Source: a virus. Taken from it: DNA of 20,139 bases. The notes under the pieces are model-generated. The model did not search any database. It had not been told where the DNA came from and was given only the letters and a program-made list of their open reading frames with translations. A program made the translations under genes and the position numbers. Of the stretch, positions 1,487 through 15,637 are shown one piece after another. The DNA is taken from positions 1 through 20,139 of IMG/VR virus record IMGVR_UViG_3300029309_000439. One strand, 5' to 3'. How positions within the stretch are numbered: position 1 is the first letter of the stretch; every line of letters starts with the position of its first letter.

Positions 1487-1661
1487 CAAACAAGGTTGCT
1501 TGCACTGGCCCTAACAACTCCCATTTGGCTATGTCAAAGCAGCACGGCTCAGTTCCCCACGGAGGCACACTGCGCACCTCTATAATGGTCACCTTGTACC
1601 GCTTGCCGTTATGGTATCGCTCATGCACCGCGACAACCTCCTCTTCAGAGTATCCCTTCAC
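1479..1661 (-). CDS. Small protein of unknown function, 60 residues, GTG start
   Basis: No family is recognised. The frame begins with GTG at 1661 (overlapping the previous gene by 17 bases) because no ATG exists in it. A later GTG at 1631 is also possible. The body is a likely beta-rich domain (YKVTIIEVRS, then FDIAKWELLG), with a vicinal CC pair at about residues 40-41 and the C-terminal end ATLFDV. That ending resembles the short hydrophobic clamp-binding tails (QxxLF-like, here QATLF) of proteins that bind the DNA sliding clamp, but one short match is weak evidence. The neighbours are a nuclease upstream and the initiator cluster downstream. Confidence 0.5.
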   Translation of the reverse strand: MKGYSEEEVVAVHERYHNGKRYKVTIIEVRSVPPWGTEPCCFDIAKWELLGPVQATLFDV

Positions 1662-1977
1662 GTTTCATTGCCGTTAGCAGTTCAAGAAAATCCTCTAGGT
1701 AAAGGGCAGCGACCGGAGGCTGGTGATTGCGCTTGTGTATAATCACGTTGATGTTCGTGTCTAACGGCATCCGTTCAAGCACCTGGTGATAGTTAATGCT
1801 AGACTCCACAGCCTTGCATTGAATGTAGAATGGGTCCGTGTCGGTCAGGTCCACACCCATATCATCCAGCTTCTTGCTCACGTAACCTGTGCGCTCTACG
1901 TCGCCTCCAAATAGGCGCATCCACACCTTCGCAATCTTCAGCTCGAATCGCTTGCCCTTGTCCCTAGAGTTAATCAT
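1645..1977 (-). CDS. Hjc/VRR-like PD-(D/E)XK nuclease, possible Holliday junction resolvase
   Basis: At 110 residues this protein has the size and motif order of small archaeal-type Holliday junction resolvases. It opens with an RDKGKRFELKIAKVW helix supplying E12. GGDVERTGY follows, then MGVDLT with the metal-binding D43, and finally the YIQCKA strand giving Q53 and K55 in place of the usual ExK. Gln at this place is tolerated in some members of the fold, but it makes activity less certain. The gene overlaps both neighbours (ATGA with the upstream frame) and sits with a RecB-like exonuclease and an SSB, so resolving or trimming branched replication intermediates is a sensible role. It could also be a restriction-like or structure-specific nuclease of another subfamily. 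Confidence 0.6.
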   Translation of the reverse strand: MINSRDKGKRFELKIAKVWMRLFGGDVERTGYVSKKLDDMGVDLTDTDPFYIQCKAVESSINYHQVLERMPLDTNINVIIHKRNHQPPVAALYLEDFLELLTAMKREGIL

Positions 1978-2240
1978 TCCATCCGTCTGCGTTGCTTAAA
2001 GTATCTCAGGCGCTGCTCCATGCGCTGCTGCATATACTCCGGTAGGTTGTCCTTGCCAAAGTAGTCTTCAATAGCTTCTAAGGCGCGGCCCATCACAGAC
2101 TTAGCCTCCTGAATCTCTGGAGGTTGTTTCATGCCTCTGTCCTTCAGCATGCCGCTGATACGGATAAGGTTCTCCTCTGTATGCACGTGGGCGTAGTAGA
2201 GGTTTTGTATCACCTTCTTAATGGCTGTGTCTTCAGTCAT
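1974..2240 (-). CDS. Helical protein of unknown function, 88 residues
   Basis: This protein looks almost wholly alpha-helical and charged. Two long helices (about 5-32 and 40-62) precede a strongly basic C-terminal tail (QQRMEQRLRYFKQRRRME) that could bind nucleic acid. I placed the start at the ATG at 2240, ten bases after the exonuclease stop, rather than at an earlier one inside that gene, because the upstream part reads as non-coding composition. Its stop overlaps the start of the Hjc-like gene (ATGA). The position between two nucleases hints at DNA recombination, but no family is recognised. Confidence 0.6.
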   Translation of the reverse strand: MTEDTAIKKVIQNLYYAHVHTEENLIRISGMLKDRGMKQPPEIQEAKSVMGRALEAIEDYFGKDNLPEYMQQRMEQRLRYFKQRRRME

Positions 2241-2250
2241 AGCGTAATTC

Positions 2251-3012
2251 TTAGATGATGTCCAATGCTGGCACCCACGAAGGCGCGTCCATCTGCCAAC
2301 CGGCCTCGTCGTCCTCGTCGTGGTTATGGCGCACCTCTCCATCCCAACGCTTCCATTGCTCAATCAGGTTCTCCCATTCGATATGGCCGCGTGCGATGTA
2401 CTGTGGCTCTAGCTCAATGACCTGGACATGATGCGGTGCAGCTGACTCTACAGCGATGATGAAGTAGGACTCGTGATCGTACCCCATAAGGGCAGCGGCG
2501 CGCTGGTATATGGCCGCTTGCATGTAGTACTTGAAGTCATAAATCGTGCGCTGTATGCTGTAGTGGCTCACGTTCTGCGTGGTCTTGAGGTCTAGCATAA
2601 ACCAAGAGCCAAGGCCGTCTATAATGCCGCGATGCGGTACACCGCACTGGTCAATGGTAAACGGCACCTCAAACTTCTGACACTGCTTAATCATAGCGCC
2701 AGCGTATGGGTGTGCCTCCACTCTGTGAGCCAACAGGCGTATGTCCATCGCTTCCTTGGCGGTAACGATGTCCTTATCTGCGTTCTCTTGTTGGAAGTCC
2801 TTCCACGCATTGCCAGCCCTGCGGCCTTCGTATACCGCCACCGTGCGGCTGTACTTCTGCGGCTCTAGGATAGCCCTGTGGACCATCGTACCGAACTGCA
2901 TGGCCGGTGTAGGTGGCTTCTTATTGTTCTTGTAGTCCAAGAAGGCCAGCGGCGATCGTGAGAACGCCTTTAGGCTGCTGAACGATAGAGGCAGGTGTTT
3001 ATCCTTTGACAT
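2251..3012 (-). CDS. RecB-like PD-(D/E)XK exonuclease (exodeoxyribonuclease VIII-like, DUF3799 type)
   Basis: This 253-residue protein carries the ordered motifs of RecB-family phage exonucleases. Motif I is FGTMVHRAILEP with H45. The acidic residue of HRGIIDG is D132. The catalytic MLDLKTTQ gives D141 and K143, and the downstream helix YMQAAIYQRA supplies the conserved Q165 and Y169. Such enzymes resect double-stranded DNA ends to make single strands for annealing or recombination, which fits the SSB encoded two genes upstream. I chose the ATG at 3012 (14-base overlap with the previous gene) because the frame begins with TTG before that. The last 35 residues are acidic and histidine-rich (RHNHDEDDE), which is unusual. 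A recombinase partner of the RecT or Erf type is not recognised in the window. Confidence 0.8.
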   Translation of the reverse strand: MSKDKHLPLSFSSLKAFSRSPLAFLDYKNNKKPPTPAMQFGTMVHRAILEPQKYSRTVAVYEGRRAGNAWKDFQQENADKDIVTAKEAMDIRLLAHRVEAHPYAGAMIKQCQKFEVPFTIDQCGVPHRGIIDGLGSWFMLDLKTTQNVSHYSIQRTIYDFKYYMQAAIYQRAAALMGYDHESYFIIAVESAAPHHVQVIELEPQYIARGHIEWENLIEQWKRWDGEVRHNHDEDDEAGWQMDAPSWVPALDII

Positions 3013-3361
3013 TGTAAATAGGGTTTCCTGTAAGGTCAAACAACTCCTTGGTGATCATGCGCATCCTGTGGTTCATGCTACTCCATTCATTGTCCTGGTT
3101 GCCGTGCTTCTCATTAAAGCGAGCTAACAGATTCCAACGTTCGTGGCGCAAGCGGCTTATCTGCTCGGCTTGCTCTGGTGTATATGCGCAGTCCATTATG
3201 TAAATGGTTTTTGGAGATGCCAAGCCAAAAATTGCATCGTACTCAGTGCCTCGCGCGATTTCACCCACCGTCGCGACGCCTTGTGAGCTTGGCGCAACAT
3301 CTTGTGGCGACGGCGGTGCTGGTCTATTAACTCGACGAGCTGGTCTCTTTCCCTCTGCCAT
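2999..3361 (-). CDS. Unknown protein with disordered basic N-terminus, 120 residues
   Basis: No family is recognised. The first 30 residues are rich in Pro, Arg, Ser and Gln and probably disordered. They are followed by a compact segment (ATVGEIARGTEYDAIFGLASPKT) and a helical C-terminal half with a charged heptad-like stretch (EQAEQISRLRHERWNLLARF). It starts three bases after the SSB stop and overlaps the exonuclease start, so all three are probably made together. By position it may be an annealing or loading partner of the exonuclease, which is an inference only. Confidence 0.65.
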   Translation of the reverse strand: MAEGKRPARRVNRPAPPSPQDVAPSSQGVATVGEIARGTEYDAIFGLASPKTIYIMDCAYTPEQAEQISRLRHERWNLLARFNEKHGNQDNEWSSMNHRMRMITKELFDLTGNPIYNVKG

Positions 3362-4325: not shown

Positions 4326-4770
4326 AGCTGAGGTCAGGGCACGCCATCCATTGCTGGAGCTGCCCAAAGACCTCCGCGACCTCAAACGACGGACAAGCCT
4401 TCGCGCTGTATTCCCTATGGCCATGTAAATCGAGTGGTTGATTGAGTACAAGACACAGCGCACGACACAGGCGTTTAATGGCGCTGCGCTGCTCCGTCGT
4501 CATGGTATTCTTTGGGTGACCGCTGTGATCAAGACCGCCAACGTAGCATATGCCGATGCTGTCTTTGTTGTGGCCCTTGGTGTGTGCGCCGGCGCGGTTG
4601 ATGGGTCGACCGCTCTCAATGGTACCGTCTAGCTTGACCACAAAGTGGTAGCCGATGTCTGACCAGTTGCGCGGCGCTGACATGTGCCACACGCGTATGG
4701 TCGCGGCGTTGACGTCTTGGTCTTCTTTGGTCGCACTACAGTGCAGAATAACGCGCGTAATCTGTCTCAT
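4321..4770 (-). CDS. Endolysin: N-acetylmuramoyl-L-alanine amidase (Amidase_2, T7 lysozyme type)
   Basis: This enzyme cuts the amide bond between N-acetylmuramic acid and the stem peptide of peptidoglycan and should lyse the host at the end of infection. At 149 residues it is a single catalytic domain of the usual length, without a cell-wall-binding domain. Zinc ligands are expected at H10 (VILHCSAT), H118 (HGHREY) and C126 (KACPSFE); the H-x7-C spacing and the lysine two residues before the cysteine (K124) match the T7 lysozyme site. Y41 in IGYHFVV corresponds to the catalytic tyrosine. No signal peptide is seen, so it needs a holin, and two small membrane proteins follow directly. Its start overlaps the tail-tip gene as ATGA. 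Confidence 0.92.
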   Translation of the reverse strand: MRQITRVILHCSATKEDQDVNAATIRVWHMSAPRNWSDIGYHFVVKLDGTIESGRPINRAGAHTKGHNKDSIGICYVGGLDHSGHPKNTMTTEQRSAIKRLCRALCLVLNQPLDLHGHREYSAKACPSFEVAEVFGQLQQWMACPDLSY

Positions 4771-7583
4771 GCAATTTGGCGTATAGCAGCATGGAGGTAT
4801 TTATCACTAATGACAAGCTTTACACTGCTGCCACTGCCCACTATCTTAAAGAAAATATTTGGACTTATGACTTGTGCAGCTGTTGCTTCAAAGACACACG
4901 TACCTCCAACTCCGTCATATTGCAACCCATATAAGTCTTTCGTAGTTCTTGCGCAGAGCACGTTGTCTGAGCCGTCAATAAATGGACCGACAACAATCTT
5001 GACTTCTGTTGCGTCGCTGGCATTGTCATTAAAGAATGCGCAGAAAATATTCATTTCATACAGGCCAGTCTCAGGAACTACATATTGATTGCTTGAATTA
5101 GTGTTGGTATTGGAGTCATAAGTTGCGGTCATGTACGTTTTAAGCGTATTCCAGCCAATCCAGCCCCCAGTTTGATTAGGTGTGAAATACGTCGTAGCCG
5201 TTGACCCTGTACCATTCCAAACCACATGATTTTTAGGGAAATTATAGCCTGAGCTAAGTGCAGTGTTTGCCCATTTACTAGCAGCGGAATTGTACTGCAA
5301 GATTTGGTTGTCTTGCACGCCGCTAATTTTTACGTCGCCTAGGTATTCCAGATGCACCGTAGACCTTCCACCGCTTGAGTTAGTCTGCTGTTGAACTGCT
5401 GCTAAATCTGTAGCTAATGAACTAACAGTTAAGCTATTCGCTGCAATCTGTTTACTTGATCCTTGTATTTCTCCGCTCAATTTATTTTGTGACTCGCTTA
5501 AAGCTTGTTGTAGCGTGCCGAGTGTAATCCTGTTGCGGCGTTGGCCAATCTTAATGTTGGCCACACTGCCAACGATTGGCGTGCTGTCGTCGCTTGCCGT
5601 GGTGCTAGTGCTGCTGTCGTATTGATACTTGAACCACTCGCCTTCATACAAGGCTTCTGTTGCGTTCATACGCAAGCGCATAGGCACGTAGTAATCCGAG
5701 TCACCATTTAGGCCTTGCACGGCGTGCGTGGGTCCGTACAAGTTACTTGACAGGCGGATGGTACCGTTGGCTGTACTTAATGGCGTTTGTCGCATGCTGA
5801 GGATGTCCAAGCACGTCAAGTCACAAATAGGTGTACTTAAGCCTGTGTAGATGCTATTGCTCCACTCGCCGGTGGACTTGGTAAATGTGCCGTCGTCATT
5901 GATTAGCCAAACGCCTTGGTTAGGGTTACTGTTGCCGATGCGGTCAGCAAGAATGGCCTCCGGTAGATCTAGGCTTTCCCTTGCGTTTGCAGCTGCGTTG
6001 GTTCGCGTGTAGGTGATAACATCACCGTCAAACGTAGAGCCGCCACGCGTTTGGTATATGCTGGTAAGGTTGGCTAGTGCAAAGGACTGGCCCAGTGAAG
6101 CGTCCGCGCTGGTGACATCGAGGTTGTTCTTGTCAAACACCTTAATGTCCCATTCACCAATTTCCGTTACGGCTACCGTACCGAGGTCAACGTCAATTGG
6201 TGGGAAGGTGATTGTGACAGTGCCGGTAAGGTGCGCACCGGCAAAGCGATCGTAGACAGCAGTGTACTCCTGTATTTCGTTTGTTGTGGTGGTGTTGTAC
6301 GTCGGCGCCTGGTCATTAGGCGCGAAGCAACTCATGTTGTCACCGTTGGTGGTGTAGGTGTTGTTTATGATTGTGCCGGCTGTGTCGGTCATGGCCGTCG
6401 TGGTGCGCTTGGCGTATATATCGCCGTGCCGCACCTTAAAGGCAAGGCGCACTCTGCGCCCCCTGTCGCTCGATGCGTTAGTCCCGTATCCGGTAAAGCT
6501 GATGACGTAGCTGAACGTCAAGCTTACGACGTCATTGTCCTCAAGCACTGGCGCACTGTTGGCAAACACAAATTGGCTTGTGATGTTGCCGCTTGCGTTG
6601 CCTGCTCCTACACCGTTCCAATCAAAGGCGTGACCTTCATAGTCGTGGGTGTAGTTTACTTCTGACAGACTGGGCAGCGCGCCAAACTCAAAGCCGGCCA
6701 GCTTAGTCTTGTTGCCTGATGTAATGGCCGTGGCTAAGCTGTACAGGTTGCCGCTGTTCTGCGTCACAAAGCCTGGTGTATTAGCACTGCTGTTGTTGCC
6801 GTTGTCGCCACTCTTAAAGTATGCGTATGCCGTCATGCCTGCGTTGGCTTTGGCCACAGGTATAACCCACCAAGCACCATGGAACTGCATTAGTCTGGCT
6901 TGCAGGTTGGTCAGCATAGACACCAACACCTCCTTGCAAGTGTGGTACTCGGCCTCACCGTTATCCTGCACGTTGCGCAGCTTGGTGTGGTTGATGATGA
7001 TTTTGCTTGTGTACGGTGCGCCGGTCATCTCCGCGTGCTGCACGTGGTCGGAGACATACAGAAAGTTCTTGTCTGCGGCCCATGCGTCTATATGGCGCAC
7101 CTTGCCAAGTATGCGACACAGCACCACGATGAGGTGCGTGGTGTCGGTGTATTCTGACGTGGGACTGTTCTTGTACAGCACTTCGTCCAGTAAGCCGATG
7201 TCGTCGGTGGCCTCAAGCGTGACAAGGTTTGGGTCTTCGTCTTGAAACGTTAGATCACAGAACAAGACACCAGACCAAAACAACTCTTGAGAAGCTGACG
7301 GACCGCGGAAGACCTCAACACGGAAGCGGCCTTCTTGTCCAGTCTGTATGTCGCTAAGGAACGTTGCGATGCTAGACGTAGTGCTGTACACAGGGATACT
7401 GCACGCGCTACTTAGGATTGGCTCGTGTGTACTTTGTCCGCGTCCGTCCCAGTCTAACTCAAAGCCTGGTGTGCCCAGTGTCAACGTACCAACAGATGAG
7501 CCGCTGTAGTCGCTGTCGTAGAAGTCAAGGTTGTACTCTGTGCCTACCTCGTCTTTAAACCCTGCTGTAAATCTCTTTGCCAT
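4767..7583 (-). CDS. Tail-tip / receptor-binding protein with C-terminal C1q-like domain
   Basis: This 938-residue protein comes directly after the tape measure, where siphophages encode distal tail, hub or central fibre proteins. The N-terminal 250 residues have the beta-rich style of a tail-tip ring or hub (for example FRVEVFRGP and VTLEATDDIGLLDEVLY). The middle is Thr/Asn-rich beta structure. Around residues 700-740 a helical, Ser/Gln-rich stretch suggests a trimeric coiled coil. Near 745-780 comes the common fibre motif LGDVKISGVQDNQILQY followed by a SKW turn. The last 150 residues look like a C1q/TNF-type jelly roll, with VVPETGLYEMNIFCAFF as the key strand pattern. The terminal domain probably binds the host surface. 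The TAATG overlap with the tape measure indicates coupled translation. Confidence 0.75.
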   Translation of the reverse strand: MAKRFTAGFKDEVGTEYNLDFYDSDYSGSSVGTLTLGTPGFELDWDGRGQSTHEPILSSACSIPVYSTTSSIATFLSDIQTGQEGRFRVEVFRGPSASQELFWSGVLFCDLTFQDEDPNLVTLEATDDIGLLDEVLYKNSPTSEYTDTTHLIVVLCRILGKVRHIDAWAADKNFLYVSDHVQHAEMTGAPYTSKIIINHTKLRNVQDNGEAEYHTCKEVLVSMLTNLQARLMQFHGAWWVIPVAKANAGMTAYAYFKSGDNGNNSSANTPGFVTQNSGNLYSLATAITSGNKTKLAGFEFGALPSLSEVNYTHDYEGHAFDWNGVGAGNASGNITSQFVFANSAPVLEDNDVVSLTFSYVISFTGYGTNASSDRGRRVRLAFKVRHGDIYAKRTTTAMTDTAGTIINNTYTTNGDNMSCFAPNDQAPTYNTTTTNEIQEYTAVYDRFAGAHLTGTVTITFPPIDVDLGTVAVTEIGEWDIKVFDKNNLDVTSADASLGQSFALANLTSIYQTRGGSTFDGDVITYTRTNAAANARESLDLPEAILADRIGNSNPNQGVWLINDDGTFTKSTGEWSNSIYTGLSTPICDLTCLDILSMRQTPLSTANGTIRLSSNLYGPTHAVQGLNGDSDYYVPMRLRMNATEALYEGEWFKYQYDSSTSTTASDDSTPIVGSVANIKIGQRRNRITLGTLQQALSESQNKLSGEIQGSSKQIAANSLTVSSLATDLAAVQQQTNSSGGRSTVHLEYLGDVKISGVQDNQILQYNSAASKWANTALSSGYNFPKNHVVWNGTGSTATTYFTPNQTGGWIGWNTLKTYMTATYDSNTNTNSSNQYVVPETGLYEMNIFCAFFNDNASDATEVKIVVGPFIDGSDNVLCARTTKDLYGLQYDGVGGTCVFEATAAQVISPNIFFKIVGSGSSVKLVISDKYLHAAIRQIA

Positions 7584-9361
7584 TACTTGCCAAATCTGCG
7601 GCGACGGCTGTAGCTGCTGCGCTCCTCACTAAGTAGAAGGTCGCGGCCACGGATTGTGCCGGTCACGTTCACATTCCCACCGCCTATCATATTCTTAAGC
7701 TTGTCCAATGGTGCTACGACCTCTGGGTTGATGCTGCTTGTGCCTGGTCCCTCGCCGACGAGGGCGAGGCTAGCGCCGCTGAAAATTCCGCCTTCGGCCA
7801 TCTGTGGTATGTTACCAAAGGCTGCGTCTACCATACCCATACCGGCAGCAATTAACGCTGGTATAACAATCATAGCCGCCGGTCCACTCATTTTACCGCT
7901 CTTAATTGCGGCCTCAATAATCATGGCTTGAGAAGCTGCTAAGGCTGCTTTGATTGCTTGCGCTGCAAACTGTTTTAAGGCTGCCGTGCTTTCCTTGCCT
8001 CCTTTAACTATTGCGCTGAATGCAGTTCCAAACTGAGTGCCAATCTGCACAGCTACACTGCGTATGATTTCGCCCATCATGGTAAACTTTTGGATTGTGG
8101 CATCCGTTGAAAAGTTGACCGAGTCATAGCTGCCTTTTAAAGTGTGGTTAGCGTGAACCGCTGCTAATACATCGACAGCATGATCAGAGTACATGCTGCT
8201 CACCTTGCCAAGCGACTGCAAGTGTGACTGCTCTACTGCAATCAGTTCTTTTTTTCCCTGTACTTCTTTACTAGTGCCGCCGTCTGTGGTCGTCGTTGGT
8301 GCTGCCGCTGGCGCGTCTGGTAAGGTGCTGAGGCTTGTCGTGCTAAAGGCAAAAAGCTCTTCCACCTTATCGACAAAAGCGTTGGCGCCTTCGAGGTGTG
8401 CGCCGGCAGCGTCAGCGCCTAATACGTTTTCAAGTTCACGCGCCAAAGTTTGCGCCGCATGAGCTTCGTCCATCAGCTCCTCGATGTTGCCTTTGTGCGC
8501 TTTCTTCAGTTTTTGCCGCAAGTGAAAGAACTGTTCACGCGACTTCTGAAGGTCGTCTTCTGACAGTGAGGCTCTTCGTACTTGGTTTGTGAACCCTTCC
8601 AGCAAACCAGTTACAACATCGAGTAGTCCTGACTTCTCTGCAAATGTGCCAAGTGCTATGGTCACGTTGTCAAACGCTGTCGTCAATCTGCCGCTGACAG
8701 TCTCCGACAGGTTAATCATAGCGTCATTGGCAAAACCGCCTTCGCTGTGCATCTGCATCAGCGCCTCGTTGAACTCGTCGACGCTAACCTTGCCAGCGCC
8801 AAACTCCATGTTGGCGTCGCCGGTGACCTTGCGCAGCTGGTCGAAGATTGGGATGCCGCGCTCCGCAAGTTGGTTTAGGCTCTCAAGCTCAACCTTACCC
8901 TTGGCTTGAACCTTAGAAAAGACAGCGGTGATGTCAGCAATGCTGTTGCCTGACGCAGCGGCTATATCGCCCAGCATACGCAGACGATCGTTGATGTCCT
9001 CGACACCTACGCCAACGGCCATCAGTTGCCGTGCGCTTCGGCTTACCTCCTCAAGCTGAAACGGAGTCTGTGCGGTAAACTTGTTAAGCTTGTCGACCAT
9101 CTTCGACGCGCCCTCCGCGCTGCCGGTGATGCTGCGAAATCCTACGCGCAGCTTCTCTAGGTCTGCACCGCTCTTGATGACAGCGGTCAAGCCGGCAGCT
9201 ACGCCGGTGGCTATCATGGTCCCTGCTTTCTTGGCAAGGTTAGATATCTCGCCAAAGTTCCTGCGGAAGTTGGACTTCGTGCGCCGCAGGTCTGAGTTGA
9301 GTTTGGTTAGGCTCTTTTTACTGAGACCGATTACAACCTTAAGACTTTTTAGTAGTGCCAT
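7583..9361 (-). CDS. Tail tape measure protein
   Basis: This 592-residue protein sets tail length and is carried in the tail tube. The N-terminal 35 residues are basic and helical. Residues 75-170 match the conserved tape-measure N-terminal domain (TPFQLEEVSRSARQL, LGDIAAASGNSIADIT, LNQLAERGIPIFDQL). The middle is helical and charged, and two hydrophobic stretches (about 47-65 and 495-530, MIVIPALIAAGMGMVDAA) could insert into the host membrane during DNA entry. The C-terminus ends in a basic cluster (YSRRRRFGK). By the family rule of about 0.15 nm per residue the tail would be near 90 nm, short for a siphophage. The start lies 23 bases inside the end of the second tail-chaperone frame, the usual position. 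Confidence 0.9.
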   Translation of the reverse strand: MALLKSLKVVIGLSKKSLTKLNSDLRRTKSNFRRNFGEISNLAKKAGTMIATGVAAGLTAVIKSGADLEKLRVGFRSITGSAEGASKMVDKLNKFTAQTPFQLEEVSRSARQLMAVGVGVEDINDRLRMLGDIAAASGNSIADITAVFSKVQAKGKVELESLNQLAERGIPIFDQLRKVTGDANMEFGAGKVSVDEFNEALMQMHSEGGFANDAMINLSETVSGRLTTAFDNVTIALGTFAEKSGLLDVVTGLLEGFTNQVRRASLSEDDLQKSREQFFHLRQKLKKAHKGNIEELMDEAHAAQTLARELENVLGADAAGAHLEGANAFVDKVEELFAFSTTSLSTLPDAPAAAPTTTTDGGTSKEVQGKKELIAVEQSHLQSLGKVSSMYSDHAVDVLAAVHANHTLKGSYDSVNFSTDATIQKFTMMGEIIRSVAVQIGTQFGTAFSAIVKGGKESTAALKQFAAQAIKAALAASQAMIIEAAIKSGKMSGPAAMIVIPALIAAGMGMVDAAFGNIPQMAEGGIFSGASLALVGEGPGTSSINPEVVAPLDKLKNMIGGGNVNVTGTIRGRDLLLSEERSSYSRRRRFGK

Positions 9362-9710
9362 TTGTCATCGCTTTAAGCGTCGCCGCCAATGCCTTGTTGC
9401 TGCCCTTCTTCTTCTTCTTCTTCTCCCAAGGGAAGATACACAGGTCCTGTGGCTTGAGTCGCTGTCCTGGCTTACCGTGTGGCGCAAGAGTAACCGTAGC
9501 TAACCACCGCGTGCGCTCCCACTCCTGTTGCTGCCTTACCTCCTCCTGTCGGTTCATGCCTTGCGCAGCAGCACAGAACTCTTGGAACGTCATGTCATAA
9601 AACACGGAAGGGCTGAACCGCAATTGGCCCAGCCCTATCTCCATGCAGTATTCAAATGTCAGCGCTTCGCCTTCACTTTTTTTTTGTGTCTCCGCCACCG
9701 AGCAACGCAC
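9339..9710 (-). CDS. Tail assembly chaperone, second frame (gpT-like extension reached by frameshift)
   Basis: This frame is probably not an independent gene. It lacks a suitable start at the end of the preceding chaperone, and the ATG at 9710 is buried in that gene. It is in the +1 (equivalently -2) frame relative to it and shares an A9 run, so recoding would join about 112 residues starting SEGEALTFEY to the first protein, giving roughly 206 residues. The pattern FEYCMEIGLGQLRFSPSVF, then MTFQEFCAAAQGMN, resembles the gpT-type domain found before tape measures, which binds the tape measure and tail tube subunits. The end is unusual: a run of six lysines coded by six AAG codons (9422-9405), then a basic helix. 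The edge at 9710 is the nominal frame; translation in this frame really begins near 9680. Confidence 0.7.
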   Translation of the reverse strand: MRCSVAETQKKSEGEALTFEYCMEIGLGQLRFSPSVFYDMTFQEFCAAAQGMNRQEEVRQQQEWERTRWLATVTLAPHGKPGQRLKPQDLCIFPWEKKKKKKGSNKALAATLKAMTNGTTKKS

Positions 9711-9957
9711 CGACAGCTTCAGCCAAGGCGTCTAGATCCTTGACCTCAATGAGTCCGAGGAAGTCGTCGCATTCGTAGTCAAACGGAATGCCGGCGTGCT
9801 TGGCTCCACTCTGTGCCATGTAGTAGACCAGCGTGCCAATCTCTACAACGTCATCACTGAGTTTGCCAAGGTCAATGCCAGCTTCACGCTTGGCCGCAGC
9901 TAAGGCGCGCATGTCGCACCTCAGTGTGAACTCTTTCTCGCTAAGCGTAAGCTTCAT
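9673..9957 (-). CDS. Tail assembly chaperone, first frame (gpG-like)
   Basis: This 94-residue protein sits between the tail tube and the tape measure, where siphophages encode chaperones that keep the tape measure soluble. It begins with a short beta hairpin (KLTLSEKEFTLRCDM) followed by helices (RALAAAKREAGIDL, DDVVEIGTLVYYMAQ and DLDALAEAVGALL), the common fold of small gpG-type tail chaperones. It ends in a glycine-rich linker and Thr-Lys-Lys-Lys coded by an A9 run just before the stop. The ATG shares one base with the stop of the tail tube gene (TAATG). Function is known from the family and from position; the sequence alone gives no catalytic motif. Confidence 0.75.
   Translation of the reverse strand: MKLTLSEKEFTLRCDMRALAAAKREAGIDLGKLSDDVVEIGTLVYYMAQSGAKHAGIPFDYECDDFLGLIEVKDLDALAEAVGALLGGGDTKKK
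9677..9685 (-). other. A9 slippery run for programmed frameshifting in the tail chaperones
   Basis: On the coding strand nine adenines are read as ACA AAA AAA AAG TGA in the first frame. Shifting by +1 (or -2), or losing one A by transcriptional slippage, continues into AGT GAA GGC and the gpT-like frame, which is open for 112 codons. A -1 shift would stop after five codons, so it is not the productive event. Confidence 0.65.
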
Positions 9958-10361
9958 TAAGCGTCGTCGCTGTCGTGAGTAATGGCACCGCTCAATTCAA
10001 ACGTGGCGCTGTAAGAAACGTTGTCCTCAGTGCCGGCGCTAGTCTCGATGCTTGTGCAAAATGCAGTAGCTGAGAACACATCGTCGTGTGTGCCAGTGTC
10101 AACACCAAACTTGATTGCAAAGCTTGAGCGTGCAGTAAAGTGAGTCATAAGCGTTGTGACTGCGTTTGTAGTGTCGTCCACCAATCCGGACACGCTAACG
10201 CTACCAGACCGCAAGCCCCCAAACAGCTCACGGAATCCGCTGCTGTCTTTGGTTGTGATGTCCCGTGTCTCCATGGACAAGCTAATGCTGCCCTCTGTTT
10301 GGTCTGGCATTGCTGTACCGGCAATGCTAACAATGTAAACTGTGCCGTTAAAAATGGCCAT
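9957..10361 (-). CDS. Major tail tube protein
   Basis: This 134-residue protein forms the tail tube by stacking rings. It has the beta-sandwich pattern of TP901-1-type tube proteins: a short N-terminal strand pair (NGTVYIVSIAGTAM), the strand SISLSMETRDITTKD, the loop SSGFRELFGGLRSGSVSVSGLV that is typical of the family, and a C-terminal strand (VSYSATFELSGAI). The size is small but within the range of such proteins. It is followed by the chaperone frames and the tape measure, which is the order expected. The acidic C-terminal tip (HDSDDA) is probably exposed. It overlaps the small membrane protein before it as TAATG. Confidence 0.85.
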   Translation of the reverse strand: MAIFNGTVYIVSIAGTAMPDQTEGSISLSMETRDITTKDSSGFRELFGGLRSGSVSVSGLVDDTTNAVTTLMTHFTARSSFAIKFGVDTGTHDDVFSATAFCTSIETSAGTEDNVSYSATFELSGAITHDSDDA

Positions 10362-10534: not shown

Positions 10535-10933
10535 TTACAGTTCTTCGCCAAACCAACCGGCCTCCCTTGCTTCTTCTTCTGTAAGTATCTCCGCGTCGCT
10601 TGGCATAAGGTACTGGAACAGCACAACGTCGTTGGTTGAGATGTAGTACGTCATAGCTGCGCGCTCCTCAGTGGTGAGCTGTGGGAACAAGGACACTAGG
10701 GCTGTGATGTCGCGCTGCGGATGCACCTGAATAGCAAGCTCCGTGTCACCAACGCAAGCCCACTGCTCGGTGTCTGGGTGCTGGATTAGGCTAAGCAGCT
10801 GCGTCGTTACATGGCCCTCGCCATGCAGCGCCTTAGGAAGCTTGAGGTTGTACAGCTCTTGGCTGATGCCTTGCGCGCGTTGCTGGCTTGTCAATTTCAG
10901 GCGCGGCGTTACGGGGAGGTATACTGTGGCCAT
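10535..10933 (-). CDS. Unknown protein of the tail module, 132 residues
   Basis: No family is recognised. It begins with a short beta segment (ATVYLPVTPRLKL) and continues as an alpha/beta protein with a clear strand (WACVGDTELAIQVH) and an acidic C-terminal helix (ILTEEEAREAGWFGEEL). There is no membrane segment. The start shares one base with the stop of the tail-terminator fusion gene (TAATG), and the next gene is the small membrane protein. It sits where some phages carry a minor tail or capsid accessory protein, so a structural or chaperone role is likely but unproven. Confidence 0.65.
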   Translation of the reverse strand: MATVYLPVTPRLKLTSQQRAQGISQELYNLKLPKALHGEGHVTTQLLSLIQHPDTEQWACVGDTELAIQVHPQRDITALVSLFPQLTTEERAAMTYYISTNDVVLFQYLMPSDAEILTEEEAREAGWFGEEL

Positions 10934-12891
10934 TAGTAGATGCTGAAGTAGTTGTTTATGTCCGTCTCTATGCCGCTGCGGTTGCTGGATTGGTCGGAAT
11001 CAAACAATATAAATTCTTGGCTTTTGTGCATATCCATAACGGATGACCAGCCTAAAGTCACAGTTGGATTAGTTGCCATACTACCAATCATGGTCAATGA
11101 AGCTTGACTACTATTTAGGCTGTTATGAAGCTCTTGCATTGTGAGCGTGGACCCAGTGCCGCCGTTTACATAATTGATTACCGTGTTGGATGCAGAAGCA
11201 GCTGAGAGGGCTTGCGCCCAACCCCAATATGGCAAAAGACCACCGCGAGATAAGGTAATTGACCTTGAACCTACATTTGGACCCTTTACTACACTAAAAA
11301 TTGAAGTATTTCCAGAGTTGGACAAGCTCGTCGACAAATAACCCGTAATCAATATTGGCTTCCCGTTTTCAGTAATCACAGCAGAGCCGTTATATATCTG
11401 CGGTTGATTGCCGCCTGTGCTTTGCGTGGCGTTGTTAGCCGTGCCTCCAACGTTAGCTTGATCATACCAAGTAACCACGTAGCCGTTAGCACTGCCGCAA
11501 TGCGTGGCGATGGCTGACGTGTCCAGGTCTCCAGAGCCATCGAAGCCAATGTCTGTCTCGCTGTCGTCGCTGTCCCTGCGAATGCGCATGCAGCTGCCGC
11601 TATAGTCTTTGTCTAGCAAGCGCACAGAGTAAGCTGCTGCCGCTCCGGTGTAGGTATCAAGTAGCTTGTCCGGTGTGCTGCTGATAAGCGTGCGCAAGAT
11701 GACAACGCTGCCGTTGGCTGTGATGCTATTTATATAAGCGTCAACCACAGCTTCAATAAAGCTTTGAGATTGGTTATCGTAAGGCCCCAAAGGGTACTGT
11801 TGCATTTGACTTAACGCGGTAGGAAAGGGCGTGCCGCTTATGTACATAGTGCGCCGCACAGTATTGTCGGCTACAGTGTCGGCCAAGTAGTTACTAATGA
11901 AGCCACGACCCTGAACACTGTTTACGCCTTCGAAGTATTCTATTGTATGACCAGCGTTAGTGAGAGCAGTAACTGAGGCCTGGGCAGAGCTAACGCGGCT
12001 GTTGCTAAAGAAAGCGTTGTTGCCGTTAGTCATTTGCTCCTGGGCGCGCGATAAGGATCGGTTTAGCTGGCTGCTAGTTGGTGAAGCTGTAGCACCAAAG
12101 TTGCCAAGCACAGCAAGCAGGTCGCCAGTGCCTACGGTTCCATTTTGGTTTATGTCGCCAAAAACACCATTGGGGAACATGCTGTCTGTTAGCCCAGCGT
12201 CAGTACCGTACTCAGTTATAACGCCTTGCAGCATGCTAATGGTAGCCTTGTCAGAACTGTCGTGGGTAACGCTACCCTCCGGAAACTCTAGCGTGTTGGC
12301 TGTGTCGCTATTGGCTGCGCTGGTCTCTTGTACAGTTAGGCTGCCGCCGCCGCCACCGCTGGCAATGGTGGCCGTGCTGCCGTTAATCGTAACCGTGCCA
12401 TTACTAAACACCAACTTTGACACGGCGCCGCTTGGTGTACCGTCGACCTCCTCAACCGTAAATGAGTTAGACGGAAACTGTGCTACGGTAACCGCTGTGC
12501 CGGTGCGCTGGATGCGGACGTCGTAGGTCTGCTCCAATACATACACGCGTTGGTCAGGATCAAACTGCACGTCGCTTGTGTCGAAGTCTATGCTCTGCAC
12601 CTCAACGCCGCTTAACGTTCCGCTCTGACGGTCTAGGGCGCCACGTACGGCAATGCCAAGGTTCATGCCGACCTCGTAGTCATCGCTCACGCAATACAGC
12701 TCCACACGCGCTGTATCGAGTTTGCTTGTGGCGTTCTTGGTGGCTGCCGGTGTCGTGTCCGTTACGCTGTAGACAATGAAGGGAAGGACAGCGTCTTGCT
12801 GCGCCATCTCTGGAAAGATGCGGTCCGCGCAGATTGCACCTACGGCGCTGCTGTCCTTCAGCAGTTTGTATATCGCTTTGCCTGTTTCCAT
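10933..12891 (-). CDS. Tail terminator-like domain fused to a dockerin-like and LamG-like surface extension
   Basis: Residues 1-135 look like a tail terminator or DUF3168 protein: helix GKAIYKLLKDSS, then RIFPEMAQQDAVLPFIVYSV, ARVELYCVSDDY and a final strand YVLEQTYDVRIQRT. Such proteins close the tail end at the head joint and are about 130 residues long; this one has 652. The extra part runs through a beta-rich linker with a Gly5 run (179-183) and a single dockerin-like calcium loop (245-266, GDINQNGTVGTGDLL). A Ser/Asn-rich stretch follows. Residues 405-652 look like a concanavalin/LamG fold related to the arabinofuranosidase B family (MRIRRDSDDSETDIGF, GYVVTWYDQ) and end in IETDINNYFSIY. 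I see no proof of glycosidase activity; carbohydrate binding is more likely. Confidence 0.7.
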   Translation of the reverse strand: METGKAIYKLLKDSSAVGAICADRIFPEMAQQDAVLPFIVYSVTDTTPAATKNATSKLDTARVELYCVSDDYEVGMNLGIAVRGALDRQSGTLSGVEVQSIDFDTSDVQFDPDQRVYVLEQTYDVRIQRTGTAVTVAQFPSNSFTVEEVDGTPSGAVSKLVFSNGTVTINGSTATIASGGGGGSLTVQETSAANSDTANTLEFPEGSVTHDSSDKATISMLQGVITEYGTDAGLTDSMFPNGVFGDINQNGTVGTGDLLAVLGNFGATASPTSSQLNRSLSRAQEQMTNGNNAFFSNSRVSSAQASVTALTNAGHTIEYFEGVNSVQGRGFISNYLADTVADNTVRRTMYISGTPFPTALSQMQQYPLGPYDNQSQSFIEAVVDAYINSITANGSVVILRTLISSTPDKLLDTYTGAAAAYSVRLLDKDYSGSCMRIRRDSDDSETDIGFDGSGDLDTSAIATHCGSANGYVVTWYDQANVGGTANNATQSTGGNQPQIYNGSAVITENGKPILITGYLSTSLSNSGNTSIFSVVKGPNVGSRSITLSRGGLLPYWGWAQALSAASASNTVINYVNGGTGSTLTMQELHNSLNSSQASLTMIGSMATNPTVTLGWSSVMDMHKSQEFILFDSDQSSNRSGIETDINNYFSIY

Positions 12892-13394
12892 CAGAGTTTA
12901 AATTTGTCGAAGACCCTGCGGTACTTCATAATCATAAGGCGCTCCATAGCTGGACGCAACCGAGCCAAGGCAGGGACAATCTTATTGAATGACTCGCTGT
13001 TTACGGTTTTGTTCCGTCCACCAATTCCGCCGTCTTCTGTCCATTGCGCAAAGTATCCGTCCATTCTTAGCGCTCCGCCTTTCCTTGGCCCTATGAATAC
13101 ATTAATGCGGCTGCCGCGGCTGTTGCGTACACCAATGGAACGCCGAAGTGTACCGTTGGGAATAGTCTTAATGACTTTACCCTGACCCTTTGGCGCTCTA
13201 CCTGGTCCAGGTGTCCCCTTGTAAATCTTAAAGTCTTTCCCGCTTCGTGGTATTTGAGGCTTCACGCGCTTGGCCGCCATGCGTCCAATGTCGCGGTTGC
13301 TCTTTCGCAACTCTCGCGCCATCTCTTTTGGGAAGGCACCGATGCGGCCAATCTGCTTAAGCAGCTCATCGAGTCCTTCGACCTTACCTGCCAT
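12891..13394 (-). CDS. HK97 gp10-like head-tail / tail component
   Basis: This 167-residue basic protein lies between the head-tail adaptor and the tail terminator, the classical place of the HK97 gp10-like family. The N-terminus (VEGLDELLKQIGRIGAFPKEM) gives the typical first helix, followed by a basic helix (RELRKSNRDIGRMAAKRVKPQIPRS). A flexible Gly/Pro/Lys-rich loop comes next, then the strand SRINVFIGPRKGG, a short FAQWTEDGG segment and a C-terminal helix. Tails of this class use such proteins at the neck. It overlaps its neighbours by 11 bases and by one base (TGATG). Confidence 0.75.
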   Translation of the reverse strand: MAGKVEGLDELLKQIGRIGAFPKEMARELRKSNRDIGRMAAKRVKPQIPRSGKDFKIYKGTPGPGRAPKGQGKVIKTIPNGTLRRSIGVRNSRGSRINVFIGPRKGGALRMDGYFAQWTEDGGIGGRNKTVNSESFNKIVPALARLRPAMERLMIMKYRRVFDKFKL

Positions 13395-14371: not shown

Positions 14372-15637
14372 TCAAGCGTTGTCGTGGAAAGTGTAAGCGG
14401 CACCACCGTGAAGCACAGCAGCATCAGCGTAGCGGTGGATACTAATCCGCACCTCGTGGCTAAGGTCCATAGCAAATGGATTGACAACGATGTCAAGACC
14501 ACCAAACAAACCGAGAACGGCAGCCTGGTTAAAGTCGGCCATAATCATAGAACCGTCAGCAGCAACACCGTTAGCAGGAAGCAAGTCGGTCACAGCGTAT
14601 GGATAGCCCAAGGCGTTGAAGTTGCCGGCGGAGCTACGGTCGAGAGCAGCGTTGACATTAGTCACAATGTCGTCAGCAGCAATCAAAGCGTGAGCAACAC
14701 TGTTGGCAACAACCTTGACGTTGGCCAAGTTGACACCAGCGGCAGCCAAGGCAGCCTCACCGAGAAGCATTGCCGCGGCGCTTACTGCGTCAGTGTTATC
14801 ACCGTCTCCAGTACCAATGATTGTGTCAAACACAGTCTTGTCAATCTGGCGATTGAGCTGTGTAATCATGTCGTTGGTGATAAGCTGCTCGACAGCAGGA
14901 CCGCCCTGCATCATAAGCTGCTCAGTGACAGTAACGAAAGCACCGTAGCGAGTAGGTGTCAAGCTCCGCGCGCCAATTTGGTTGGCTGCGCTTGATACGT
15001 CAACACCCTCACCAGCTGTTGCAACTGTTGCAGCAGCAGTAACGATTGGAACGTTGACATTAGAAGTCAATCCGGTAAGGACGCGACCACCAAGAGACTC
15101 AAACAAAGTCGGTGCGGCCAAGGCAGCAACACCTGCGGCGACTTGCGTACCAACAAAGCCAGGAGCGTTGGCCAAGGAAGAACCGGCACCAAAATCACCA
15201 GCGTCACCCAATGCACGCATTGCGCTTGCAGGGATAGAGAGCTGGCCTTTGATAGCCATGTTAGAGCCGCGAGCTTCACGCACAGCCTCCTCAGTAAACT
15301 CAGCGGCGACACCAGTAACACGCTTGCCTTGTGACAAATCACGGACGGCACCAGCCAAGTCAAAGCGCTTGGACATGTTGCGCATCTCATTGGATGCACC
15401 ACGGCCAATCTCACCAGCAAGAACAGCACTCTCGGCAATCTTAGCGTCTTCACGCTTCACCTTAAGTTGCACGTCCACCTTGCGGATTTCAGTGGCAAGG
15501 CGCTCCAACTCTGCTACGTCAGTATCAGAGAGATCGCGTTCTTCAAGTTCAGCGGCTTTTTTAACGTCTTCGCGCTGCTCGACGTATTGCTGGCGCAGGG
15601 CCTGCAAATCCTTGATAGGAAGGTCAGTCATTTTCAT
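14372..15637 (-). CDS. Major capsid protein (HK97 fold, Phage_capsid family)
   Basis: This protein of 421 residues forms the icosahedral shell. The first 65 residues are charged coiled coil (LQALRQQYVEQREDVKKAAELEERDL and onward), the delta domain that acts as an internal scaffold and is removed by the prohead protease. The remainder has the HK97 layout: Thr/Val-rich N-arm, a long spine-helix region (EEAVREARGSN), the insertion with FGAGSSLANAPGF, VTEQLMMQGGPAVEQLI, and a C-terminal strand (VRISIHRYADAAVLHGGAAYTF). I start at the ATG at 15637, overlapping the protease stop by 14 bases; two codons later is another ATG, and an earlier TTG is unlikely. The leader reads AACAACAAC, with no Shine-Dalgarno. 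Confidence 0.93.
   Translation of the reverse strand: MKMTDLPIKDLQALRQQYVEQREDVKKAAELEERDLSDTDVAELERLATEIRKVDVQLKVKREDAKIAESAVLAGEIGRGASNEMRNMSKRFDLAGAVRDLSQGKRVTGVAAEFTEEAVREARGSNMAIKGQLSIPASAMRALGDAGDFGAGSSLANAPGFVGTQVAAGVAALAAPTLFESLGGRVLTGLTSNVNVPIVTAAATVATAGEGVDVSSAANQIGARSLTPTRYGAFVTVTEQLMMQGGPAVEQLITNDMITQLNRQIDKTVFDTIIGTGDGDNTDAVSAAAMLLGEAALAAAGVNLANVKVVANSVAHALIAADDIVTNVNAALDRSSAGNFNALGYPYAVTDLLPANGVAADGSMIMADFNQAAVLGLFGGLDIVVNPFAMDLSHEVRISIHRYADAAVLHGGAAYTFHDNA

Follow-up and report, generated by a model that had tools for sequence, protein, structure and literature searches.

The stretch of viral DNA analysed here (the window, 20,139 bases) is an entire IMG/VR virus record and is probably an incomplete genome. 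A siphophage structural module lies on its minus strand, as judged from the list of open reading frames and from Pfam and PHROG matches. Genes for terminase, portal, S78 protease, HK97-type capsid, a gp6-like connector, a head completion protein and a gp10-like neck protein are followed by the gene considered here, a 132-aa gene, the tail tube, two small genes, the tape measure, a 938-aa protein and an amidase. The gene considered here occupies 12891-10933 on the minus strand and encodes 652 aa with no internal stop. It sits between the neck protein and the tail tube gene, an order that is also found in cultured relatives. The features discussed below are as follows.

12891..13394, minus strand: HK97 gp10-like neck protein, context (PF04883, E 2.2e-4, barely over the cut-off)
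12481..12891, minus strand: tail terminator domain, residues 1-137 (PF11367, PHROG 347 and VIA fold matches)
12160..12480, minus strand: beta-rich linker, residues 138-244, carrying the motif TVEEVDGTPSGAVSKLVFSNGTVTINGSTATI (alignment, motif search)
12118..12159, minus strand: single dockerin/EF-hand-like calcium loop GDINQNGTVGTGDL, residues 245-258 (motif search)
11674..12117, minus strand: spacer and small alpha/beta module, residues 259-406 (pLDDT ~80-90 over 301-400)
11356..11673, minus strand: conserved frame of the tip, residues 407-512, first half of a GH54 beta-sandwich (PF09206, AbfB profile)
11029..11355, minus strand: hypervariable face of the tip, residues 513-621 (conservation among tips; DNA identity with locus L082)
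10936..11028, minus strand: conserved C-terminal strand and helix of the tip, residues 622-652, with the invariant E626 (tip alignment)
10535..10933, minus strand: 132-aa partner gene (follows the tip in 109 of 113 places; pLDDT 88, no PDB match)
9957..10361, minus strand: tail tube protein, context (PF06199, E 1.1e-15)
4767..7583, minus strand: 938-aa distal tail protein, whose C-terminal end (about 4770-5240) reads as a C1q-like tip

Residues 5-127 of the 652-aa protein match the Pfam family Tail_completion_gp17 (PF11367) with an E value of 1.9e-16 and 60.7 bits against a cut-off of 24.5, and the domain also matches PHROG 347, "tail terminator", at E 5.9e-15. The predicted fold of residues 1-137 resembles the solved terminators of GTA, Bxb1, T5, Mu and lambda with Z scores of ~12-16, the best being 16.3 (VIA). 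By family model, fold and gene position, residues 1-137 are a tail terminator. A further ~515 residues follow in the same open frame, bearing out the initial annotation, which had described a terminator fused to a long C-terminal extension. It had also named fold prediction as a check, with similarity to neither domain as the adverse outcome; both parts proved recognisable, the first as a terminator and the last as an arabinofuranosidase-B fold. Model confidence is high for the terminator and for much of the conserved frame of the tip, but low for the linker and the variable face. Considering that the arm occupies most of the chain, one might regard the N-terminal domain as a mere docking domain, with another protein capping the tail. 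However, its position is exactly that of the terminator gene in cultured relatives, the domain is under strong purifying selection, and the Pfam and PHROG searches of the structural module yield no second terminator candidate, all of which makes this view very improbable.

The region between terminator and tip is modular. The linker motif TVEEVDGTPSGAVSKLVFSNGTVTINGSTATI is duplicated in some relatives, and the spacer and alpha/beta module align as two alternative versions. The calcium-loop motif did not arise in any of 5000 shuffles of the arm, and of 71 complete related entries, which correspond to 52 distinct proteins, 33 have it in the matching position. Among these relatives, the loop is present or absent together with the middle module. 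A full type I dockerin consists of two duplicated calcium-binding segments. The fusion protein and its relatives have one loop only, with the duplicated second segment not present, and Dockerin_1 (Pfam) is not matched by the fusion protein at E 0.1. We therefore rejected a dockerin identity: of the dockerin-like loop described initially, the single EF-hand-type calcium loop stands, as an element that is optional among relatives, whereas a true dockerin does not.

In two scans, viral contigs yielded this terminator at about a hundred loci, which carry roughly 59 different metagenome identifiers; many of the contigs are short, one contig can account for several loci, and the tip itself partly determined which loci entered the sample. 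Loci on these related contigs are given L-numbers. All 52 distinct complete relatives are fused, with lengths of 318-961 aa, and none is near 130 aa. In comparisons with near relatives, dN/dS is 0.02-0.19 in the terminator, the linker and the conserved tip frame, indicating a single translated chain. The window itself is a single contig, and a frameshift, a misassembly (chimera) or a chance open frame could be suspected on that ground. We rejected this explanation, to which we assign almost no probability, as the same fusion recurs on contigs from dozens of metagenomes, every complete relative is fused, and dN/dS stays well under 1 along the arm as well as in the terminator. The initial annotation had suggested looking for the same fusion in other phages: all close relatives carry it. 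In two distant cultured phages, Paracoccus phage Pthi1 and Bacteroides phage F2, the tube gene is immediately preceded by a terminator of 128-129 aa that stands alone, and MT835917, an unannotated faecal phage, has a 133-aa ORF at the terminator position. Since distant cultured phages have the stand-alone form in the same place, it is likely the ancestral state. No relative of the terminator domain was found in the 84,980 species genomes scanned for a host. At L016:533-2779, a 748-aa protein precedes the terminase and carries the calcium loop, the lectin tip and a 132-aa partner of 91% identity. Its N-terminus matches PF11367 at E 0.0055, under the cut-off, and profile comparison gives a probability of 0.3%; it is possibly a second, independent fusion with a very diverged terminator N-terminus.

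The C-terminal domain matches ArabFuran-catal (PF09206) with an E value of 1.9e-6 and 27.7 bits against a cut-off of 25, and an AbfB profile at E 3e-7. The predicted model of residues 408-652 superimposes on GH54 AbfB (1wd3) with Z 14.0 over 207 aligned residues (rmsd 3.7). Confidence is low over the variable face (pLDDT <50 for most of 527-621), so that the fold assigned to this face rests on the conserved frame and on the structural aligner. Where the initial annotation had read a LamG/arabinofuranosidase B-like domain, the arabinofuranosidase part is borne out by family and fold, and the LamG family models in Pfam give no match in the fusion protein; as both folds are jelly-roll sandwiches, the missing match does not exclude a distant kinship.

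Conservation within the tip is uneven. Among 42 distinct lectin tips, the mean fraction of the commonest residue is 0.81 over residues 407-512, falls to 0.27 over 513-621 and recovers to 0.67 over 622-652. In 81 pairs with a terminator identity of at least 90%, the median identity of the variable face is 21%, and 79 of these pairs lie below 35%. DNA identity between the window and L082 follows the same pattern, reaching 95-97% for the terminator and 94-96% for the 132-aa gene and dropping to 39-45% across the variable face, which is flanked by values of 69-97%. The hypervariable tip behaves as expected of a putative lectin that tracks changing host polysaccharides. A diversity-generating retroelement was considered as the source of the variability and rejected, there being no reverse transcriptase among the Pfam-scanned proteins of the window and the variants differing in length.

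A family match over the cut-off and a fold match across the whole domain could also be taken to mean that the tip is an active GH54-type glycosidase, that is, a depolymerase mounted at the neck. The catalytic residues argue against it. GH54 E308 aligns with the invariant E626 of the tip, but the positions of E221 and D297 lie within the hypervariable face, where the 42 tips show nothing conserved in their place (a gap; Trp or Ala) and the alignment is uncertain. Binding rather than hydrolysis is for this reason the better guess, and we consider an active enzyme quite improbable.

The lectin tip is coupled to a gene of its own. A 132-aa homologue follows the tip in 109 of 113 testable places, the gap usually being within about a dozen bases, and the ORF upstream of the 132-aa gene carries a lectin tip in 117 of 117 sufficiently complete cases, on the terminator or on many other anchors; the remaining upstream ORFs are cut by contig ends, and these counts are biased in that many loci were found via tip or partner and some are the same contig. 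Behind other kinds of tip there is no 132-aa gene; the tube gene begins 174-208 bases further on, or other genes lie in between. The exception is found in L108 and L111, where the 132-aa gene is present and a separate lectin-tip gene (331 aa) comes after a differently tipped terminator arm. In L108:2579-6161, an IELA-type terminator arm, the 331-aa lectin-tip gene and the 132-aa partner thus show both arrangements side by side. The model of the 132-aa protein is confident (pLDDT 88); it has two unnamed BFVD matches, nothing in Pfam or PHROG, nothing in the PDB above Z 3.7 and no match in named phages. Judging from its constant neighbour, the protein is probably a dedicated partner of the lectin tip, serving as its chaperone or cap.

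The two loci with a separate 331-aa lectin-tip protein, together with the long and flexible linker, lend some substance to the idea that the chain is cleaved, or that translation restarts internally, leaving the terminator and a free lectin or fibre as separate components of the virion. The 52 distinct complete proteins, however, include neither a free-standing lectin arm of the clade nor a short terminator, and the linker after the terminator is well conserved. We regard separation of the two parts as unlikely.

Tail terminators are generally regarded as conserved morphogenesis parts. Here, a near-constant terminator is followed by at least five kinds of C-terminal end among the 52 distinct proteins. 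The lectin-like tip is by far the commonest (43/52); an IELA-type end behind long AITANTAKTGITSGQAS repeats and a C1q-like end terminating in AAIRQIA account for three proteins each (3/52 and 3/52), and two short end types for 2/52 and 1/52. The C1q likeness is our reading of the sequence and does not come from a database match. L004 has two lectin tips in tandem. At L062:4303-8445, one 1381-aa protein bears three tandem lectin tips and is followed by a homologue of the 132-aa gene. A given cassette can also recur on different backgrounds: L037 and L042 share a variable cassette behind different terminators (81% identity in the face, 73% in the terminator), and L002 and L006 have a DNA identity of 94% over residues 301-406 and of 67% in the terminator. 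The occurrence of the same cassette or arm behind diverged terminators indicates that tips and arms move by recombination.

This exchange extends to the distal tail. The 938-aa protein of the window, for which neither a Pfam family nor a match in named phages was found, terminates in the tip borne on the terminator arm of L113, L116 and L117 (41% identity over 185 aa). The distal protein of L082 is 99% identical to that of the window in the first 680 residues, but ends in an IELA-type tip, as does the distal protein of L119; the IELA-type tip is in turn carried by the terminator arms of L100, L108 and L114. In L146, a lectin tip (46% identity) is part of a 1719-aa protein right after the tape measure, accompanied by the 132-aa gene. 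The tip modules are therefore common to other adhesin proteins, as expected of phage adhesins and tail fibres with exchangeable tips. Outside the nearest clade of the window, many relatives have a distal tail protein with a conserved end that lacks any such tip, and of the adhesin candidates seen in these phages the terminator arm varies most. The C-terminal part of the 938-aa protein (4770-5516) forms a second hypervariable region, with a DNA identity of 29-35% to L082, set between 92-96% upstream and 93-97% in the downstream amidase gene.

We propose, with a probability of roughly 0.78, that the terminator ring doubles as the base of a receptor-binding arm, so that in this group of uncultured siphophages the neck also grips the host surface, a task that usually falls to separate fibre proteins. 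From family and fold we infer that residues 1-137 would form the usual ring, capping the tail tube and docking to the head. Each ring subunit would extend its beta-rich linker with the calcium loop outwards to the tip, in this phage a GH54-type beta-sandwich in which the catalytic residues are not conserved and a hypervariable face of ~110 residues would bind sugars. The 132-aa protein may help the lectin tip to fold, or cap it. Tips are swapped as cassettes between phages, and also between neck arm and distal tail protein, by which exchange the clade could mount adhesins at two places. The initial annotation had offered a virion-decorating arm and a fused fibre gene as alternatives; the two amount to a single structure, an arm resembling a fibre, whose exchangeable tips are in part common to the distal tail protein.

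Terminators are hexameric and fibres usually trimeric, which counts against the arm reading, as does the question of how a hexamer would arrange long repeat-rich arms such as that of L116. A hexameric tail-capping ring is known for the terminators of T5, lambda, SPP1 and R4C (PMC11784142, PMC10276861). The arm could instead be a structural or assembly element, such as a neck brace, a capsid-to-tail strap or a tail-length or joining factor, with no adhesin function. In favour of such a role, the arm is joined to a morphogenesis protein, and the window phage already carries a tip on its distal tail protein. Yet a brace touching conserved parts of the virion should itself be conserved, whereas the end of the arm is hypervariable or replaced while the virion genes are alike, and its tips are found again on distal tail proteins and on other anchors. 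A purely structural arm thus appears improbable.

Going beyond the receptor-binding arm, we tentatively consider a broader scenario, which we hold to be possible rather than probable. The neck, not the tail tip, might be the main and fastest-evolving host-recognition site of the clade, with the ring of terminator arms making first contact; the lectin tip and its 132-aa partner might constitute a mobile adhesin cassette moving among neck, tail-tip and fibre anchors across unrelated phages.

Host binding at the neck was initially described as rare; it is indeed uncommon, but precedents exist (PMC6669499, PMC10457771). The neck passage structure (NPS) of 936-type and P335 lactococcal phages is a neck-mounted protein of about 500-900 residues, with near-constant N-terminal ~180 residues and several classes of C-terminal end that include carbohydrate-binding modules (PMC6669499). 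The fusion resembles it in combining a constant N-terminal anchor with exchangeable ends. In contrast, the NPS is a protein in its own right, with a BppU-like anchor for which an 18-mer collar has been proposed (PMC6669499); the anchor of the fusion is the terminator itself, and hence a phage that lost the arm would lose its terminator as well. Gp40 of Vibrio phage XM1 is an 839-residue trimeric collar spike in contact with both the terminator and the head completion protein; a role in sensing or holding the host has been proposed for it (PMC10457771). Like the terminator arm, it is a long neck-mounted element, but it is a separate trimer held by an Ig-like N-terminal domain and not a covalent part of the terminator. 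SPP1 gp17, lambda gpU, T5 p142 and R4C gp18 share the fold and gene position of residues 1-137; they have about 130-160 residues and no arm. Larger terminators have extra domains for other roles, e.g., contact with the sheath (PMC11784142).

On the side of the tip, the GH54 alpha-L-arabinofuranosidase B (1wd3, 6sxr) shares the beta-sandwich over 408-652, the YDQSGN region and the equivalence of E308 with E626, and differs in that E221 and D297 are not conserved in the tips, whose corresponding face is hypervariable. The same lectin-like domain is present in PHROG 10356, "virion structural protein", and in similar tail proteins of Gordonia, Arthrobacter and cyanobacterial phages, none of which is fused to a terminator. 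As a defining feature of an NPS, a dockerin and a GH54 enzyme was in each case looked for and not found, we file the fusion under none of them. In the open-access literature searched, we came across no description of a terminator-adhesin fusion. Neck-mounted adhesins are already known as separate proteins; new here is the terminator itself as the anchor. Were the receptor-binding arm real, the head-tail joint would be a place where host range can be determined, receptor-binding proteins could go unnoticed under the annotation "tail terminator", and a portable adhesin cassette equipped with its own partner gene would be in circulation among environmental phages. The matter is open to direct testing in near-identical phages whose main difference lies in the tip.

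Several smaller features of the window deserve mention. Two PD-(D/E)XK nuclease-like genes lie close by each other at 1645-3039, near a gp32-like protein; the pair shows a DUF3799 match and a PDDEXK_15 match under the cut-off. The small gene preceding the tape measure (9339-9710) matches only PHROG 16333 and 7377, both of unknown function, and perhaps encodes a tape-measure chaperone. At 14400-15300, the capsid gene drops to ~70% DNA identity with L082 and L003 while neighbouring genes are mostly >90%, which reads as an allelic swap within the capsid gene. Part of the neck-protein gene (12900-13300) shows a DNA identity of 55-69% with L082, L003 and L005 and of 98% with L083, the pattern of a mosaic junction immediately before the terminator.
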